DNA of 41,030 nt, from contig SIAA01000015.1 in the NCBI GenBank assembly GCA_009692045.1, positions 1 to 41,030 of the forward strand, given 5' to 3'. The position numbers and the translations under genes were made by a program. Below are positions 7,722 to 35,807 of this stretch, one piece after another. The notes beneath the pieces were generated by a model that searched no databases, was not told where the DNA came from, and worked only from the letters and a program-made list of their open reading frames with translations. The first letter of the stretch is position 1; the number at the start of each line of letters is the position of its first letter. The stretch is from Phycisphaerales bacterium. Its GTDB lineage: Bacteria; Planctomycetota; Phycisphaerae; Phycisphaerales; SM1A02.

Positions 7722-10381
7722 CTCCAAGACGCTAACAGAAGTGGGAGATCACCTCCGCCCACCGTGCCGTCGCCATTGAGATCGGCGTTGGGATTGCCGG
7801 GGAGTTGTCCCCAGAGCAAGAGCATTATGGCAAGGTCGGCCCCATCTACGATGCCATCACCATTCAGATCTGCCGGAACAGGCGGAGTCGGGTCACATTC
7901 ATCGAGCAGGAAATCCATGTCGATGTCGAGTAAAGAAGCGCCCACCACTGCCATGGAGGTTGGTTGCGGCGCGTCCACCGAGTAGACGCGATAGGTGCGC
8001 AGGTAGTAACCATCGCTGAGCCGGAATCCGTGCACCGACGCGCTGGCGCCGGTGGCGCATACCAGCAGAACATCACCGCGCGGGCCCAGCTTCATCGCCG
8101 TCGGATCGCGCAGCGCCACGCTGCTGCTTGGATTGGGGCCGACATCGAAGCGGCCGCCGTAGGCACCTGTCATCAGGTCGAGCAACAGAATCGCATCGAG
8201 CGCCACACTGCTTACAAACACCCGACCATCAGGATGGGTCTCTATGTCCGTCACCACACCCACATCAAGAGGGAGTGAAGCGCCGATGCTTCCCAAGTCT
8301 GCACCGGTCGTGGCATCGAAGCGGCGAATGAGTGAGTTGCCGTCAAGAACGAGGAGTTCGCCGCTTTCGGTAGCACGACACCTGCGTGGATCGATGAGCC
8401 CCGCGCTGGGCGGGACGAGGTCCGAAGGTGGCGCACCCGTGGCACTGAATTCCACCACCGCTTTGCGGCTGCGCGACACCACAAGCATGGCACCATCGGC
8501 TCGCCAACATAGGGCGGAGATGTCGGTACCAAGGAGCGCGTTAGGACTGACAAAGAACTCCAGATTTCCCGTACTTCTATCTAGGCGCGTGATCGCCCCC
8601 AGACGTGCACCAGTCACACTGATGGTTCCTGCGGCGTAGAGAGCACCGTCTGGACCGATGGTGATGTCGGTGGTGGAGATGAGACTCGTCGGTGTGCTGC
8701 GCACGCGAACTCCGCTACGCCCGTGCAACTCATAAACCAGATCGCCCCCCGCTTGAACGCACCAGATGCCTAGGGCGCCATTCAACTCCTCCGCATCTGT
8801 CACGCCATCGGCGTCGCAATCCTCACAGGAGTCGAGGCGCCCGTCACGGCTGCGATCATTGATCATCCAGCCGACGGTGTTGATCTGGGTGTAGTCGCTG
8901 GTGCCGCTGGAATCGCAGTCCACCTCGCACTCATCGGGAACGCCGTTCAGGTAGGTGTCGGTGACAAGCGCCGCGGCAATCTCCATGGCATCAGGAATCG
9001 AGTTGGAGTTGCAGTCGGGATCGCAGTGATCAGGGCGCGAGTTGCCATCAACATCCGGTTCGCCCTGAAGGATCTCCTGGGGATCAAGTACACCATCACC
9101 ATCGCAGTCCTGACAGGAGTCGGGGATGCCATCGAGATTGTTGTCAAACACTGCACCCGAGGAGATAGCGGTGGAATCGTCGATGCCATCCTCATCGCAG
9201 TCGGTATCGATGCACGCGACGCCCGAAACATAGGCCTGAATCTGCTGCGCTAACAGAGTCTCGAAGCGCAGGTCGACATTGGCGCTCGCTCCGCTGACGG
9301 TGTGACAGTAACTCATCAATCCCGCGCGGCGCACCTCGCCGGTGTTACAGGCGTCGAGGCCGTAGCTATGGGTGTGCAGCGTTCCAATGTTGTGACCTAT
9401 CTCATGTGTCGAAACATTGATGTCCCAGTTGCCCGGATTGTCGGCCGTGCCATCGGCGAACGAGCCGTTCATGTACCCAGATACGGAGTAGCCGCTACCG
9501 GTGCACACAGCATTGAGCCAGGCAACTCCGCCATAGGGAAGATTGCGGCGACCAGTGAGCAACTGCGCCAAGTCTCGGGGTACGTTCCCCTGCTGATCGT
9601 TCCAATGACTGCGAAAGGGGTCGAGCGGATCAGGTTCGTTGAAGAGGTCGGCGGCGGTATCCCAGAGTCTGAGATAGGTGAGCGAGAGGCGGACACCTGT
9701 GTCCCTAGTGAGTATCAAACTGTTGATGCCGTAGAGCGCAACGATGTAGTCCTCCGCGGCTTGCGGGGACGCAAAGATCGAACAGAACTCGAAGTCGGTG
9801 TCCACTGCCAGTTCGATCATCTTGGGCCACACTGCGCCGACCCCCGCGAGGCTTCCGGAGGCTCCGCCACTGCCGCCACTGCCGCCACTGCCGCTGCCGG
9901 AAGCAAGGTCCCCATCCAACCCGCAGGGAACGGGGGAATCCACCCCCGAGAACCCAATTTCTCGCTCGAATCTCCACGGCCCAGGCCGCATTCCCCGCGT
10001 GCACAACTGGGGAGCGGCGTTGGACGCAAGGGTGGTCAGCGTGTAGCAATTTCCACCGCCTCTGGGCATAAGCAATCCGAGCGCGCCCTCGGGACTCTGG
10101 GCAATGAAGGCATCGAGCGAGCCATCTTGGCTCGTGCCGCGAAACAGTTGTACGCGGTCGCGACTCAGGGTGTGCTGCTCGGTCAGGCCCTGGTCACCCA
10201 CAGTCGTCACAATCGCGCCGGGCGCGACTACATGAAAGCGTTCCAGAGAAAGCTGGATCGGGCCATCGCAGGTGTCGAACACTTGCAGGAGTGACTCACT
10301 GTCGACACCCCCTGCTGTCGCAGCGATCAGAGTCATCACGATCGCCGCCGGAATTGCTGCGAAGGGTACGGTGGGCTGCAT
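7718..10381 (-). CDS. Secreted metzincin metalloprotease with TSP3-like repeats and C-terminal dockerin
   Basis: 887 aa. A signal peptide (about 1-25) and a propeptide-like region precede a Gly/Ser linker (161-177, encoded by 9-bp tandem repeats). A reprolysin-like catalytic domain follows (about 185-390). Its zinc site HEIGHNIGTLH has ligands H326, H330 and H336, with catalytic Glu327 and a Met-turn LMSY around Met356. Residues 392-535 hold Asp-rich calcium repeats of thrombospondin type 3 kind (DCDGDGVLDPQE, DCDADGVTDAEE). About 540-830 look like a beta-propeller of NHL/YVTN type. The last 50 residues have two dockerin/EF-hand loops (ADLNGDGIVDGAD, ADLNGDGTVGGGD), which in this group may serve surface sorting or calcium binding. 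A site reading AAGGA precedes the ATG by 5 bases. The stop overlaps the HEPN gene. Confidence 0.85.
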   Translation of the reverse strand: MQPTVPFAAIPAAIVMTLIAATAGGVDSESLLQVFDTCDGPIQLSLERFHVVAPGAIVTTVGDQGLTEQHTLSRDRVQLFRGTSQDGSLDAFIAQSPEGALGLLMPRGGGNCYTLTTLASNAAPQLCTRGMRPGPWRFEREIGFSGVDSPVPCGLDGDLASGSGSGGSGGSGGASGSLAGVGAVWPKMIELAVDTDFEFCSIFASPQAAEDYIVALYGINSLILTRDTGVRLSLTYLRLWDTAADLFNEPDPLDPFRSHWNDQQGNVPRDLAQLLTGRRNLPYGGVAWLNAVCTGSGYSVSGYMNGSFADGTADNPGNWDINVSTHEIGHNIGTLHTHSYGLDACNTGEVRRAGLMSYCHTVSGASANVDLRFETLLAQQIQAYVSGVACIDTDCDEDGIDDSTAISSGAVFDNNLDGIPDSCQDCDGDGVLDPQEILQGEPDVDGNSRPDHCDPDCNSNSIPDAMEIAAALVTDTYLNGVPDECEVDCDSSGTSDYTQINTVGWMINDRSRDGRLDSCEDCDADGVTDAEELNGALGIWCVQAGGDLVYELHGRSGVRVRSTPTSLISTTDITIGPDGALYAAGTISVTGARLGAITRLDRSTGNLEFFVSPNALLGTDISALCWRADGAMLVVSRSRKAVVEFSATGAPPSDLVPPSAGLIDPRRCRATESGELLVLDGNSLIRRFDATTGADLGSIGASLPLDVGVVTDIETHPDGRVFVSSVALDAILLLDLMTGAYGGRFDVGPNPSSSVALRDPTAMKLGPRGDVLLVCATGASASVHGFRLSDGYYLRTYRVYSVDAPQPTSMAVVGASLLDIDMDFLLDECDPTPPVPADLNGDGIVDGADLAIMLLLWGQLPGNPNADLNGDGTVGGGDLPLLLASWR

Positions 10382-21829: not shown

Positions 21830-23614
21830 ATGGTTGACTACAACCTCATTTCCGACATCGACATCGACTCATCAGTCTCGGACAACATGGTTCGAGAAGC
21901 ACTCGGCGACATCAGTTCAGTTCTGGAATCCGGCGCCATTTCCCAGTTCAAACCGGGAGCGGTTCTCCCCGGCAGAGTCGTCTCCATCAGTGGGGACTTT
22001 GTAATCATTGATGTCGGGCTGAAGAGCGAGGGCCAGGTTCCCATTGCTGAGTTTGAGGATGCGGGCGGGGTTTCAGTTGGCGATACGGTTGATGTGATGA
22101 TCGAGGGTCATGAAGATGCCGAGGGCAGCCTTGTTCTCTCCAAGCGCAAGGCCGACCGCATCCGCGGCTGGTCGCAGTTGCTGCTGACTCGCAAAGAGGG
22201 TGATGTCGTAGAGGGCAAAGTTCTTCGCAAGATCAAGGGCGGATTGCTGGTTGATATCGGCGTCCCGGTCTTCCTGCCTGCCTCGCAGGTTGATGTCCGC
22301 CGTCCCGGTGATGTAGGCGACTTCCTCGGTCGCACCATCCGCGCCTCCATCCTCAAGATTGACGAGGAGCGACGCAATATCGTCATCAGCCGTCGCAAGC
22401 TCATCGAAGAGGAGCGCGATGCTGCCAAGAAGGACCTGATGGCCAAGGTCGTCGAGGGCGCGATCGTCAAGGGCATCGTCACCAACATCGCAGACTTCGG
22501 CGCGTTTGTTGATCTGGGCGGCGTTGATGGTCTGCTTCACATCACTGATATGTCTTGGGGGCGCGTCAATCACCCCAGCGAGATCGTCAAGTCTGGGCAG
22601 GAGATCGAGGTCAAGATTCTCAACATCGATCGCGAGCGCGAGAAGATCGCTCTCGGTCTCAAGCAGAAGGAATCGAGCCCGTGGGAGCAGATTGAGAAGA
22701 AGTACCCCGTCGGCGCCCGCGTGCGCGGCACGGTGGTGAACCTCATGTCCTACGGCGCATTCGTGCGGCTCGAGGATGGCATTGAAGGGCTGGTTCATGT
22801 CAGCGAAATGTCATGGACGCGCCGCGTCAATCACCCGAGCGAGGTTGTGGCTCAGGCTCAGGAGATTGATGTTGTGGTGCTTGACTTCAACAAGGACAAG
22901 CTCGAAATTTCTCTGGGCATGAAGCAAACCGAGGTCAATCCCTGGGACCTCGTTAGCGAGAAGTACCCGCTCGGCACCGTCATCGAGGGCAAGGTTCGCA
23001 ATCTCGCCAATTATGGCGCGTTCATCGAGATCGAGCCTGGCATCGACGGCCTGCTGCATGTGAGCGACATGAGCTGGACCAAGAAAGTTGCCCATCCCAA
23101 TGAGGTCGTAAAGAAGGGCGATGCCCTCAAGTGCGTCGTCATCGAGGTTGATCAGGAGAAGCAGCGCGTGGGTCTGGGGCTCAAGCAGCTGGCCGAGGAT
23201 CCATGGGTTGAGGCCATTCCCAGCGCCTATCGACCGGGCATGATCGTCAAGGGCAAGATCACCAAGATCACCAACTTCGGCGTGTTTGTCGAACTCGAAG
23301 ATGGCCTCGAGGGGCTGCTTCACATCAGCGAGCTCGCTGATGCCAAGGTCGAGAACCCGCAGGATGTTGTTAAGCCAAATCAGGAGGTCGATGTCAAGAT
23401 CCTGAGAGTTGATACCGAGGAGCGCAAGATCGCCCTGTCGCTCAAACGGGCTCAGTGGGGCGCGGCCGCTACCCCAACTCCGGCGGCATCCTCTGCCACC
23501 AAACACGAGGATGATGCGTTCCTTTCGCCCAAGCGCAAGGCTGCACCCACCCGCGGCGGAATGGACGATCACGGCGCACTTGGCACGGACAAGTTCACTC
23601 TGCCGGGGACCTGA
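21830..23614 (+). CDS. rpsA: 30S ribosomal protein S1
   Basis: 594 aa with six S1 OB-fold repeats, starting near residues 43, 128, 208, 293, 380 and 465. Repeats 3 to 6 carry the classic form G-x-V-x-x-(I/L)-x-x-(F/Y)-G-(A/V)-F-V...GLLH(I/V)S(D/E)(M/L)(S/A). Repeat 2 keeps GGLLVDIGVPVFLPASQVD, typical of the domain that binds the ribosome. The C-terminal 60 residues are a low-complexity Ala/Pro/Lys tail ending in GTDKFTLPG. Six domains match E. coli S1 (557 aa). S1 recruits structured or weakly initiating mRNAs to the 30S subunit. A terminator follows 70 bases after the stop. Confidence 0.96.
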   Translation: MVDYNLISDIDIDSSVSDNMVREALGDISSVLESGAISQFKPGAVLPGRVVSISGDFVIIDVGLKSEGQVPIAEFEDAGGVSVGDTVDVMIEGHEDAEGSLVLSKRKADRIRGWSQLLLTRKEGDVVEGKVLRKIKGGLLVDIGVPVFLPASQVDVRRPGDVGDFLGRTIRASILKIDEERRNIVISRRKLIEEERDAAKKDLMAKVVEGAIVKGIVTNIADFGAFVDLGGVDGLLHITDMSWGRVNHPSEIVKSGQEIEVKILNIDREREKIALGLKQKESSPWEQIEKKYPVGARVRGTVVNLMSYGAFVRLEDGIEGLVHVSEMSWTRRVNHPSEVVAQAQEIDVVVLDFNKDKLEISLGMKQTEVNPWDLVSEKYPLGTVIEGKVRNLANYGAFIEIEPGIDGLLHVSDMSWTKKVAHPNEVVKKGDALKCVVIEVDQEKQRVGLGLKQLAEDPWVEAIPSAYRPGMIVKGKITKITNFGVFVELEDGLEGLLHISELADAKVENPQDVVKPNQEVDVKILRVDTEERKIALSLKRAQWGAAATPTPAASSATKHEDDAFLSPKRKAAPTRGGMDDHGALGTDKFTLPGT

Positions 23615-25763: not shown

Positions 25764-26813
25764 ATGCATTTCCTCACTAGCGTCGCCCTAGTTTGCGCAG
25801 CCATCCCGACACTTCAGGCAGCGGGACAGAACCTAGCCGACAGAGTTGCAGCCGTCGCCCAAGAGCGCGAACGAGTAGAGCGCCAAGCGGCGCTCGCCCC
25901 GGCTCCATCGGGCCAGTGGAGCAAGGCCCGCATTTTGGGTCAGCTGGTCTATACGGATCTGTCGGTCAACTTTGAGGCGACCTCCGCCAAGGATGTATTC
26001 GCCTATCTGCAGTCGGTATTGCAACTGCCTATCACAGTTCGCTACAGCGATGATCGAACAGGCGAGGGCATCGACCCGGATGCGTTGGTCACGCTTCGGC
26101 TCGACTCTACACCTGCTCTAACTGTGATTGAACAAGTTCTGGAGGTGTGCACGACTGACGAGCCATGCACCTGGCAGCTGCGCAAGGGATTTCTCGAGGT
26201 GGGAACAAAGCCGAGGCTCACTTCACCTGCGGCAATGGAACTGAAGATGTATCCGGTGAAAGACCTCCTCTTTGAGATGCCCTACTTCGACAACGCTCCG
26301 AACTTCAATCTGAATGCTGCCATCTCCCAGGGCGGCGGTGGCGGTGGTGGTGGTGGAAGCGGCGGCGGTGGAAGCGGCGGCGGTGGCGGCGGTATGGGAG
26401 GCGGTGGTGGTGGAAGCGGAGGCGGTGGTGGTGGAAGCGGCGGCGGTGGCGGCGGCGGCGGCGGAATATTTGGCGAACCCGGCGGTGATCCCGAGCGCAC
26501 ACCCGAGGCTGAGCGCGCCCAGAAGCTGGTCGATCTGATTCTGCAGACGGTGGAGCCAGAGCAATGGGAAGACAATGGCGGCGGCCCATGCACCATTCGT
26601 TACTACGAAGGCGTGCTGATCGTTCGGGCTCCGGACTTCGTCCACCGCGGCCTTGTCGGCTATCCATTTGAGCCACGAAGAACGGAGACGGAGACGGAAA
26701 CGGCTGGTCGATATGTGGACTTCACGGGCAACATCGCCATGATCCAGAATGTGGGATTCACTCCCGTACCGGTGACAGGCGCGGTAGGCGGCACATCGGG
26801 CGGCAATCCCTGA
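25764..26813 (+). CDS. Exported secretin-N/STN-like protein with a polyglycine linker
   Basis: 349 aa. A signal peptide (1-21) precedes a short coiled region. Residues 60-150 read LSVNFEATSAKDVFAYLQSVLQLPITVRYSD... and LRLDSTPALTVIEQVL, the pattern of the secretin/TonB short N-terminal (STN) domain. Residues about 160-185 (MELKMYPVKDLLFEMP) and 250-305 (LVDLILQTVEPEQWEDNGG, YYEGVLIVRAPDFVHRGL) match the secretin N1-like layout common in planctomycete secreted proteins. Between them, residues 190-234 are almost pure glycine with Ser interruptions. There is no secretin barrel domain. AAGGAGG precedes the ATG at good spacing. It might be a periplasmic adaptor to a secretion or pilus machine. Confidence 0.6.
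   Translation: MHFLTSVALVCAAIPTLQAAGQNLADRVAAVAQERERVERQAALAPAPSGQWSKARILGQLVYTDLSVNFEATSAKDVFAYLQSVLQLPITVRYSDDRTGEGIDPDALVTLRLDSTPALTVIEQVLEVCTTDEPCTWQLRKGFLEVGTKPRLTSPAAMELKMYPVKDLLFEMPYFDNAPNFNLNAAISQGGGGGGGGGSGGGGSGGGGGGMGGGGGGSGGGGGGSGGGGGGGGGIFGEPGGDPERTPEAERAQKLVDLILQTVEPEQWEDNGGGPCTIRYYEGVLIVRAPDFVHRGLVGYPFEPRRTETETETAGRYVDFTGNIAMIQNVGFTPVPVTGAVGGTSGGNP
26331..26465 (+). repeat. GGN-rich microsatellite coding a polyglycine/serine linker
   Basis: A run of GGC/GGT/GGA codons with interspersed AGC and one ATG encodes 45 residues, about 38 of them Gly, in G4S-like periods. Such tracts change length easily by slippage in multiples of three. Confidence 0.9.
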
Positions 26814-34931: not shown

Positions 34932-35333
34932 TCACTTGGACTTGGTTTTGGATTTGGCCTTGGGGCGCCACTCCACCCGCGGGGCCTCTTTCCACAGACC
35001 TTCAAGATCGTAATAAGCCCTCTGCGAAGGTTCAAACAGGTGGACAATCGTCTCGACAAAGTCGACAACAATCCAACTCGTTCCATCATCCGCGCTGCGC
35101 CGCCATGCGGGATTCCCCTCGGCAGTGGCCTGCTTATCCATTTCGCCCGCCACCGATTTCATCTGGCGCGCGCTGGTTCCGCTGGCGATCACCACGAAGT
35201 CACAGACCTGCGATCGGGTGCGCACATCAATCACGGTAATGTCATCACAGTTATTGTCAGCAGCCATCCGCGCCATCGAAAGCGCGAACTCCTTGATCAA
35301 TACTGGGTCCCCCACCGATCGTGTCCGGGTCAT
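34932..35333 (-). CDS. rsfS: Ribosome silencing factor RsfS
   Basis: 133 aa. The central part reads DDITVIDVRTRSQVCDFVVIASGTSARQMKSVAGEM and later SWIVVDFVETIVHLFEPSQRAYYDLEGLW, the two signature blocks of the RsfS/YbeB/Iojap family. RsfS binds L14 on the 50S subunit and blocks subunit joining under starvation. The C-terminal 12 residues are a Lys-rich tail. The gene begins 25 bases after rpsU on the same strand, so the two ribosome genes probably form an operon, with GTAAGG serving as a weak ribosome-binding site. Confidence 0.94.
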   Translation of the reverse strand: MTRTRSVGDPVLIKEFALSMARMAADNNCDDITVIDVRTRSQVCDFVVIASGTSARQMKSVAGEMDKQATAEGNPAWRRSADDGTSWIVVDFVETIVHLFEPSQRAYYDLEGLWKEAPRVEWRPKAKSKTKSK

Positions 35334-35358: not shown

Positions 35359-35760
35359 TCAACGGGACGAGGGTCCGCTGCTGCGGTAACCGCCACCGCC
35401 CGTGCCGCTACTGGCATATCCGCCGCCGCCCGTGCGAGGCCCACTGCTGCGACCGGCGCCGCCCGTGCGAGCTCCGCCAGTGCGACCGCCGCCCGTGCGA
35501 GCTCCGCCAGTGCGACCGCCGCCGGTGCGACCGCCGCCGGTGCGACCACCAGCCGTGCGCGAATCCGGTCCAGAACCGAGCAGGCCGACGGGCCTAGGTG
35601 CGAATCGCCGCGACTCGCGTCTCTTACGCTCCGAGGGCTTCTCGTAGTGCATGCGCTTCTTGACATCCTTGGTCAGCCCCTCCTTCTCGCACATCTTCTT
35701 GAACCGACGGACCAGTTGCTCAGCTGTCTCATTACCGCGTGCCTTGACTCGAATCGCCAT
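35359..35760 (-). CDS. rpsU: 30S ribosomal protein S21 with a long Arg-Gly-Thr repeat tail
   Basis: 133 aa, about double the usual 60-70. Residues 1-56 are a normal S21: MAIRVKARGNETAEQLVRRF, KKMCEKEGL, KKRMHYEKPSERKRRES. Then follows GLLGSGPDSRT and from about residue 69 a low-complexity tail of GGRTGG and GGARTGG units, ending with Gly-Gly-Tyr repeats (GGGGYASSGTGGGGYRSS). Such Arg-Gly and Gly-Tyr-rich tails are known from RNA-binding RGG proteins. The gene has a good promoter 48 bases upstream and AGGAAAG before the ATG; rsfS follows. The frame is continuous through the repeats, so the tail is translated if the assembly is right. Confidence 0.92.
   Translation of the reverse strand: MAIRVKARGNETAEQLVRRFKKMCEKEGLTKDVKKRMHYEKPSERKRRESRRFAPRPVGLLGSGPDSRTAGGRTGGGRTGGGRTGGARTGGGRTGGARTGGAGRSSGPRTGGGGYASSGTGGGGYRSSGPSSR
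35449..35556 (-). repeat. 15/30-bp tandem repeats coding the S21 tail
   Basis: Imperfect 15-bp units are built on GTGCGACCGCCGCCG as read on the plus strand. Within them a 30-bp unit (35461-35490) is repeated exactly at 35491-35520. Lengths are multiples of three, so changes in copy number keep the reading frame. Confidence 0.9.
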
Positions 35761-35807
35761 GTGAGTTGTCCAACTTTCCTTTGAGGGTTCGGTGAGGCGG
35801 GCCGAGT

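Follow-up and report, generated by a model that had tools for sequence, protein, structure and literature searches.

Whether a long, disordered tail on a ribosomal protein is a genuine part of that protein, and what such a tail could do on the ribosome, are the questions raised by the gene encoding bS21 (rpsU) in a stretch of 41,030 nucleotides from a Phycisphaerales genome, hereafter called the window. The window bS21 is a genuine member of its family with a translated tail, and tails of this kind recur among related genomes, have more than one origin and are constrained at the protein level.

The rpsU gene and the conserved core of bS21

The rpsU reading frame (35359..35760, minus strand; ATG at 35760, stop codon ending at 35359) begins with ATG, contains no internal stop and encodes a protein of 133 residues. 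A complete S21 with a long tail had been described in an earlier note on this DNA, and that description was borne out, the core and a 78-residue tail sharing one open frame. The conserved core comprises residues 1-55 (35596..35760, minus strand) as delimited by PF01165 and an AlphaFold2 model. Residues 5-52 matched PF01165 (Ribosomal_S21) with an E value of 4.7e-13 and 49.1 bits, the curated cut-off being 27 bits, and covered positions 2-49 of the 55 in the profile. The protein was also similar to solved bS21 chains (E 7e-9). The AlphaFold2 model, run with 24 relatives and of low overall confidence (mean pLDDT 60), contained core helices at residues 13-27, 29-38 and 42-52. Only one bS21 copy was found in the window genome, a 2.17-Mb, 95%-complete assembly; thus, the protein should serve the ribosome. 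The single copy rules out a division of labour with another bS21 paralogue.

The bS21 of Flavobacterium johnsoniae (7jil) aligned in sequence to residues 7-52 of the window protein with an offset of one. The Flavobacterium protein, which sequesters the anti-SD, differs in having 64 residues without a tail, and its Tyr54 stacks on A1534 (PMC9976891), whereas the window bS21 would have no Tyr at the corresponding place, with Phe53 nearby. By the offset of the sequence alignment, Tyr54 would correspond to residue 55, two beyond Phe53.

An SD-like AAAGGA (35777..35782, minus strand) is located 17-22 nt upstream of the rpsU ATG, which is unusually far, and a pdxH-like gene lies upstream in divergent orientation. 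The gene encoding bS1, a protein with six S1 domains (21830..23614, plus strand), is present in the window approximately 12 kb from rpsU, and in several relatives bS1 and bS21 are likewise encoded within a neighbourhood of roughly 8-25 kb. The gene encoding bS18 was also located.

Composition and repeats of the tail

The tail comprises residues 56-133 (35362..35595, minus strand) and reads RPVGLLGSGPDSRTAGGRTGGGRTGGGRTGGARTGGGRTGGARTGGAGRSSGPRTGGGGYASSGTGGGGYRSSGPSSR after residue 55. Its 78 residues include 32 Gly, 12 Arg, 10 Ser, 9 Thr and two Tyr, with a net charge of +11. The AlphaFold2 model assigned the tail pLDDT values of about 46-57 without predicted structure, and it is predicted to be disordered. 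The Arg/Gly richness claimed in the earlier note stands, but the motif had to be corrected: the tail contains seven R[ST]GG motifs, the repeat is R-T-G-G, and no canonical RGG tri-residue repeats occur in it. Clustered Arg-Gly repeats, positive charge and predicted disorder, the last judged from low pLDDT, are traits of RG/RGG regions that were found in the tail.

Analysis with Tandem Repeats Finder revealed a 15/30-bp in-frame tandem array coding for GGRTGG and GGARTG units (35457..35559, minus strand) and a second, 30-bp repeat coding for GGGGY and SSG units (35375..35435, minus strand). The exact 30-bp duplication proposed previously was present and proved slightly longer than proposed, the identity extending over 37 bp at a spacing of 30 bp. 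The copy number given for the window species is that of one metagenome-assembled genome (MAG), and the only same-genus genome (L051) breaks inside rpsU, where contig G001:C87 stops in the bS21 core at approximately residue 39.

The nucleotide pattern coding for RTGG units, GGN-CGN-ACN-GGN-GGN (GGNCGNACNGGNGGN), gave 17 matches genome-wide compared to 22 for a reversed-pattern control, and four of the 17 fall in rpsU alone. A genome-wide fondness for RTGG-coding DNA was ruled out, since the pattern is at control level outside rpsU. Reading frames in 429 kb of the genome were scanned for stretches of 40 residues rich in Gly and Arg. Apart from the tail of S21, such stretches were found in one Gly-rich EF-hand-like ORF and, as a weak match, in a frame whose coding status is doubtful. 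The Gly/Arg tail is no general habit of the proteome of the window genome. The EF-hand-like protein (L275, 2544-4529, plus strand) has a Gly/Arg/Gln-rich tail, which apart from that of bS21 is the sole clear Gly/Arg-rich tract of these 429 kb.

Two further repetitive features were noted in the window. A 349-residue ORF (25764-26813, plus strand) contains a long poly-Gly/Ser linker with tandem repeats at 26331-26466, and resembles a Gly-rich ORF in L309 of a relative. A short perfect 9-bp tandem repeat, CCGCCACTG, is located at 9864-9894.

Distribution and origins of tails among relatives

The relatives named here are MAGs of Phycisphaerales, several of them from lakes. Tails of at least 30 residues were found in 35 of the 72 complete bS21 sequences from the family of the window genome, a sample chosen to cover genera and not at random, so that the fraction is no estimate of frequency. 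At least a quarter of the residues were glycine in 25 of these 35 long tails, all of which had a net charge between +5 and +12, and two or more R[ST]GG motifs were present in 13 of the 72 proteins. The arrays closest to that of the window were found in the genus with code g253, as in L084 (GRSAGGRTGGGRTGGGRTGGGRTGGGRTGGG), with copy number shifting between species. Closely similar in-frame arrays occur in independent MAGs of other genera (L084, L086, L202 and L252). The number and order of R[ST]GG motifs are loosely conserved between the tails of the family, about half of which, including G005 and G015 nested among tailed members, is without a long tail. Loss of the tail in all relatives, a possibility raised beforehand, was refuted by the recurrence of tails within the family.

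Neither long tails (at least 30 residues) nor R[ST]GG tails were found among 24 bS21 sequences from other families of the order. Long tails were found in 10 of 60 bS21 sequences from other families of Planctomycetota, and only one of these was Gly-rich, of a GFGG type. This protein (L138, from the family with code f85 outside the order of the window genome) carries a GRRRFGGFGGFGGGFGGG... tail, a Phe-Gly version that possibly represents a further independent origin. The bS21 tails of L120 and L163, from other Planctomycetota families, have 66 and 93 residues and a quite different, partly acidic composition. A phage origin was ruled out, as a relative is encoded on only three viral contigs, in each case with no Gly/Arg tail.

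A species tree was obtained from bS1 of 58 genomes, the tailed group having been defined before the tree was seen; since bS1 is one gene, the true history of the species could depart from this tree in its details. The R[ST]GG tails were located mainly in one family clade, which holds the window genome, and other Gly-rich tails in a separate family clade, with short bS21 in and around both. A single tailed clade was rejected on this tree with a p-AU of 3e-34, and a tail length of at least 30 residues requires at least 8 changes. The topology combined with the number of changes indicates repeated gain and loss of the tail.

Selection on the tail

Substitutions in the tail were compared in pairs of close relatives. 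The ratios of synonymous to other changes were 16:2 (L081/L083), 24:4 (L079/L080), 7:1 (L104/L050) and 38:13 (L082/L202), and the synonymous excess over the neutral site ratio in the four pairs gave p values from 9e-4 to 8e-10. The pooled pN/pS, from pairs that are not independent, was 0.32 for the tail and 0.09 for the core. The pairs consist of relatives and the window tail lies outside them, as the same-genus L051 ends in the core. Since changes between close relatives are mostly synonymous, the tail is translated and its protein sequence constrained. The codon changes indicate that the tail is under protein-level selection, weaker than that on the core.

These results bear on the main rival explanation, a serious possibility about which we nonetheless have some doubt, in which the tail is mostly non-adaptive: it would be lengthened and shortened by replication slippage on simple repeats of high GC content, at a C-terminus that is permissive and exposed to solvent, with selection merely purging residues that aggregate or disturb the ribosome. 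The in-frame 15/30-bp array with its 37 identical bp, the differences in copy number between close relatives, the many short bS21 proteins in the family and the 8 changes in tail length on the tree are all consistent with slippage. Glycine-rich low-complexity regions have also been described as common in bacterial proteins, with GGC as the favored glycine codon (PMC6821194). However, slippage accounts poorly for the strong synonymous excess in the tails and for the net positive charge of 35 of 35 long tails. It is likewise at odds with the near absence of comparable tails in approximately 270 other ORFs of the genome, and with like chemistry appearing twice within a single family but in no genome out of 24 from sister families.

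Translation initiation in the window genome

The 3' end of the 16S rRNA of the window genome reads GGATCACCTCCTTTCT, with the anti-SD CCTCC intact. An SD-like 4-mer preceded 24% of the first ATGs of 268 long ORFs compared to 9% of internal ATGs, and TANNNT as a -10 box in the -11..-14 band preceded 15.3% of first ATGs compared to 0.2% of internal ATGs, absolute percentages that are probably underestimates because first-ATG starts are crude predictions. TANNNT with its first base at -12 relative to the first ATG was found in 25 of the 268 ORFs (window and L259-L278), whereas 0.2 were expected from internal ATGs. The same method applied to E. coli as a control gave 41% SD and 0% leaderless. The suspicion that this genome uses many leaderless mRNAs was thus well founded, given a clear signature of the -10 box at the ATG and low SD use. 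A leaderless/RPS1-type bias, alongside small SD fractions, has already been described for Planctomycetes (PMC5397173).

It had been proposed in the earlier note that the tail could replace part of the SD contact. Such a replacement, with promotion of leaderless or non-SD initiation, we consider improbable. The low SD use and strong leaderless signature of the genome agree with this proposal, as does the finding that the leaderless signal was highest in two RTGG-tailed genomes, the window genome with 15% and G359 with 19%. The comparison of the leaderless signal of the window genome with that of pooled tail-less relatives gave a p value of 0.009, uncorrected for kinship. Nevertheless, the RSGGG-tailed G388 showed no leaderless signal (0/43), so that the association between RTGG tails and leaderless initiation is at most a hint. 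The SD use of tail-less relatives was equally low, at 25-33% in five genomes with an excess over background of 10-24 points, compared to 8-30% and an excess of 1-23 points in five tailed relatives. Of the family members, 72% have an SD-like 4-mer ahead of rpsU, the figure being 66% for those with tails and 78% for those with short ones, and the window encodes a six-domain bS1. Since SD use is equally low without a tail, the anti-SD is intact and the SD of rpsU is mostly kept in the family, replacement of the SD contact is not supported.

The AAGGA-type motifs of most relatives are closer to the rpsU start than the AAAGGA of the window. Low genome-wide SD use, an intact anti-SD and an SD before rpsU, traits of the Bacteroidia system in which bS21 sequesters the anti-SD, were also found here, although in the window genome the rpsU motif lies unusually far from the ATG. 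Retention of the rpsU SD despite low genome-wide SD use is reminiscent of that in Flavobacterium, and the likeness to the F. johnsoniae system (PMC9976891) is that of the same protein with the SD of its gene kept in a low-SD lineage.

Other explanations of the tail

The gene located next downstream of rpsU encodes the ribosomal silencing factor RsfS (34932..35333, minus strand; PF02410, E 1.4e-26). This linkage, together with RG-rich, Tyr-containing disordered repeats, a type known for condensation with RNA in eukaryotes (PMC8562343), could suggest that the tail clusters ribosomes or forms condensates, for example in dormancy, where RsfS also acts. We hold this to be hardly probable, as the tail has only two Tyr and the linkage of rpsU and rsfS is common to many relatives, tailed or not, including those with short bS21 in sister families. 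The linkage is therefore probably ancestral and not specific to the tail, and an explanation tying the tail to it was ruled out.

Autoregulation, in which the tail would bind its own G-rich coding mRNA, is very improbable. GG runs are numerous in the strand coding for the tail, which matches the pattern of a two-tier G-quadruplex, and a coding link between RGG proteins and RNA G-quadruplexes has been described for human genes (PMC11789052). However, there are just five GGG runs, codons for Arg and Gly are G-rich anyway, and the tail-region mRNA folds less stably than shuffles (z +2.6). The last result indicates that RNA structure is not what is kept, and a structured RNA encoded by the repeat was ruled out on the same ground.

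An assembly artefact or misframed read-through, which could be suspected from exact repeats in a single MAG and from the break inside rpsU of the same-genus L051, is largely refuted and frame error ruled out, since independent MAGs of other genera carry similar arrays with the same in-frame chemistry and with codon-level constraint.

Discussion

The explanation we favor, although tentatively, is a role of the disordered, positively charged tail as a multivalent, non-specific tether for RNA on the platform of the 30S subunit. In F. johnsoniae the contacts of the C-terminal portion of bS21 are mainly with the 16S rRNA 3' tail, and mRNA selection changes when this portion is deleted (PMC9976891), a placement in line with the earlier positioning of S21 near the anti-SD region. 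Because bS21 has its C-terminus next to the 16S rRNA 3' end on the platform, we infer that the tail would serve as an RNA tether there. It would leave the ribosome beside the anti-SD and the mRNA exit, and may keep near the platform either mRNA, upstream or incoming, or the 3' tail of the rRNA together with bS21 itself. The strength of such a tether would be set by the number of arginines and the length of the chain and not by the exact sequence, which would account for a drifting copy number alongside preserved composition and charge. RNA binding by the RTGG repeats is an extrapolation from eukaryotic RGG proteins, and a tail without RNA contact, either solvent-exposed or cleaved off, would look identical in sequence. 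A more specific proposal, that the tail is an RG-type, disordered, RNA-capturing arm by the anti-SD and mRNA exit, gained repeatedly and used as a tunable mRNA tether for leaderless or SD-poor initiation, appears unlikely.

C-terminal low-complexity tails of bacterial ribosomal proteins are already known, and the RG-type tail on bS21 is a variant of these. The tails treated in passages of PMC6821194 are similar to that of the window in being disordered extensions expected on the ribosome surface. They differ in being mostly Ala/Glu- or Lys-rich, Gly/Arg-Thr repeats not being described in those passages, which name S2, S16, L25, S3, S6, L3, L10, L17, L19, L21 and L31 but not bS21. Searches of open-access literature gave no report of RG tails on bS21. 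The N-terminal extension of eukaryotic uS5 (RPS2) is likewise RG-rich, disordered and part of a small-subunit protein, although it belongs to another protein, terminus and domain of life, is methylated by PRMT3 and is not homologous (PMC10216425). The eukaryotic RGG/RG RNA-binding proteins share with the window tail Arg-Gly repeats, Ser/Tyr spacers and a net positive charge. The motif of the window tail is R-[ST]-G-G in place of RGG, and there is no homology with these proteins.

The place of bS21 on the ribosome is the meeting point of mRNA and the 16S rRNA 3' end, and in Flavobacterium the C-terminus of the protein tunes mRNA choice. The bS21 tails of the family, which range from roughly 5 to 90 residues and vary between related genera, constitute a natural comparative series that serves the question of what role a disordered Arg-Gly arm has on the ribosome. 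A tailed bS21 would be the bacterial counterpart of the RG-rich extension on eukaryotic uS5.
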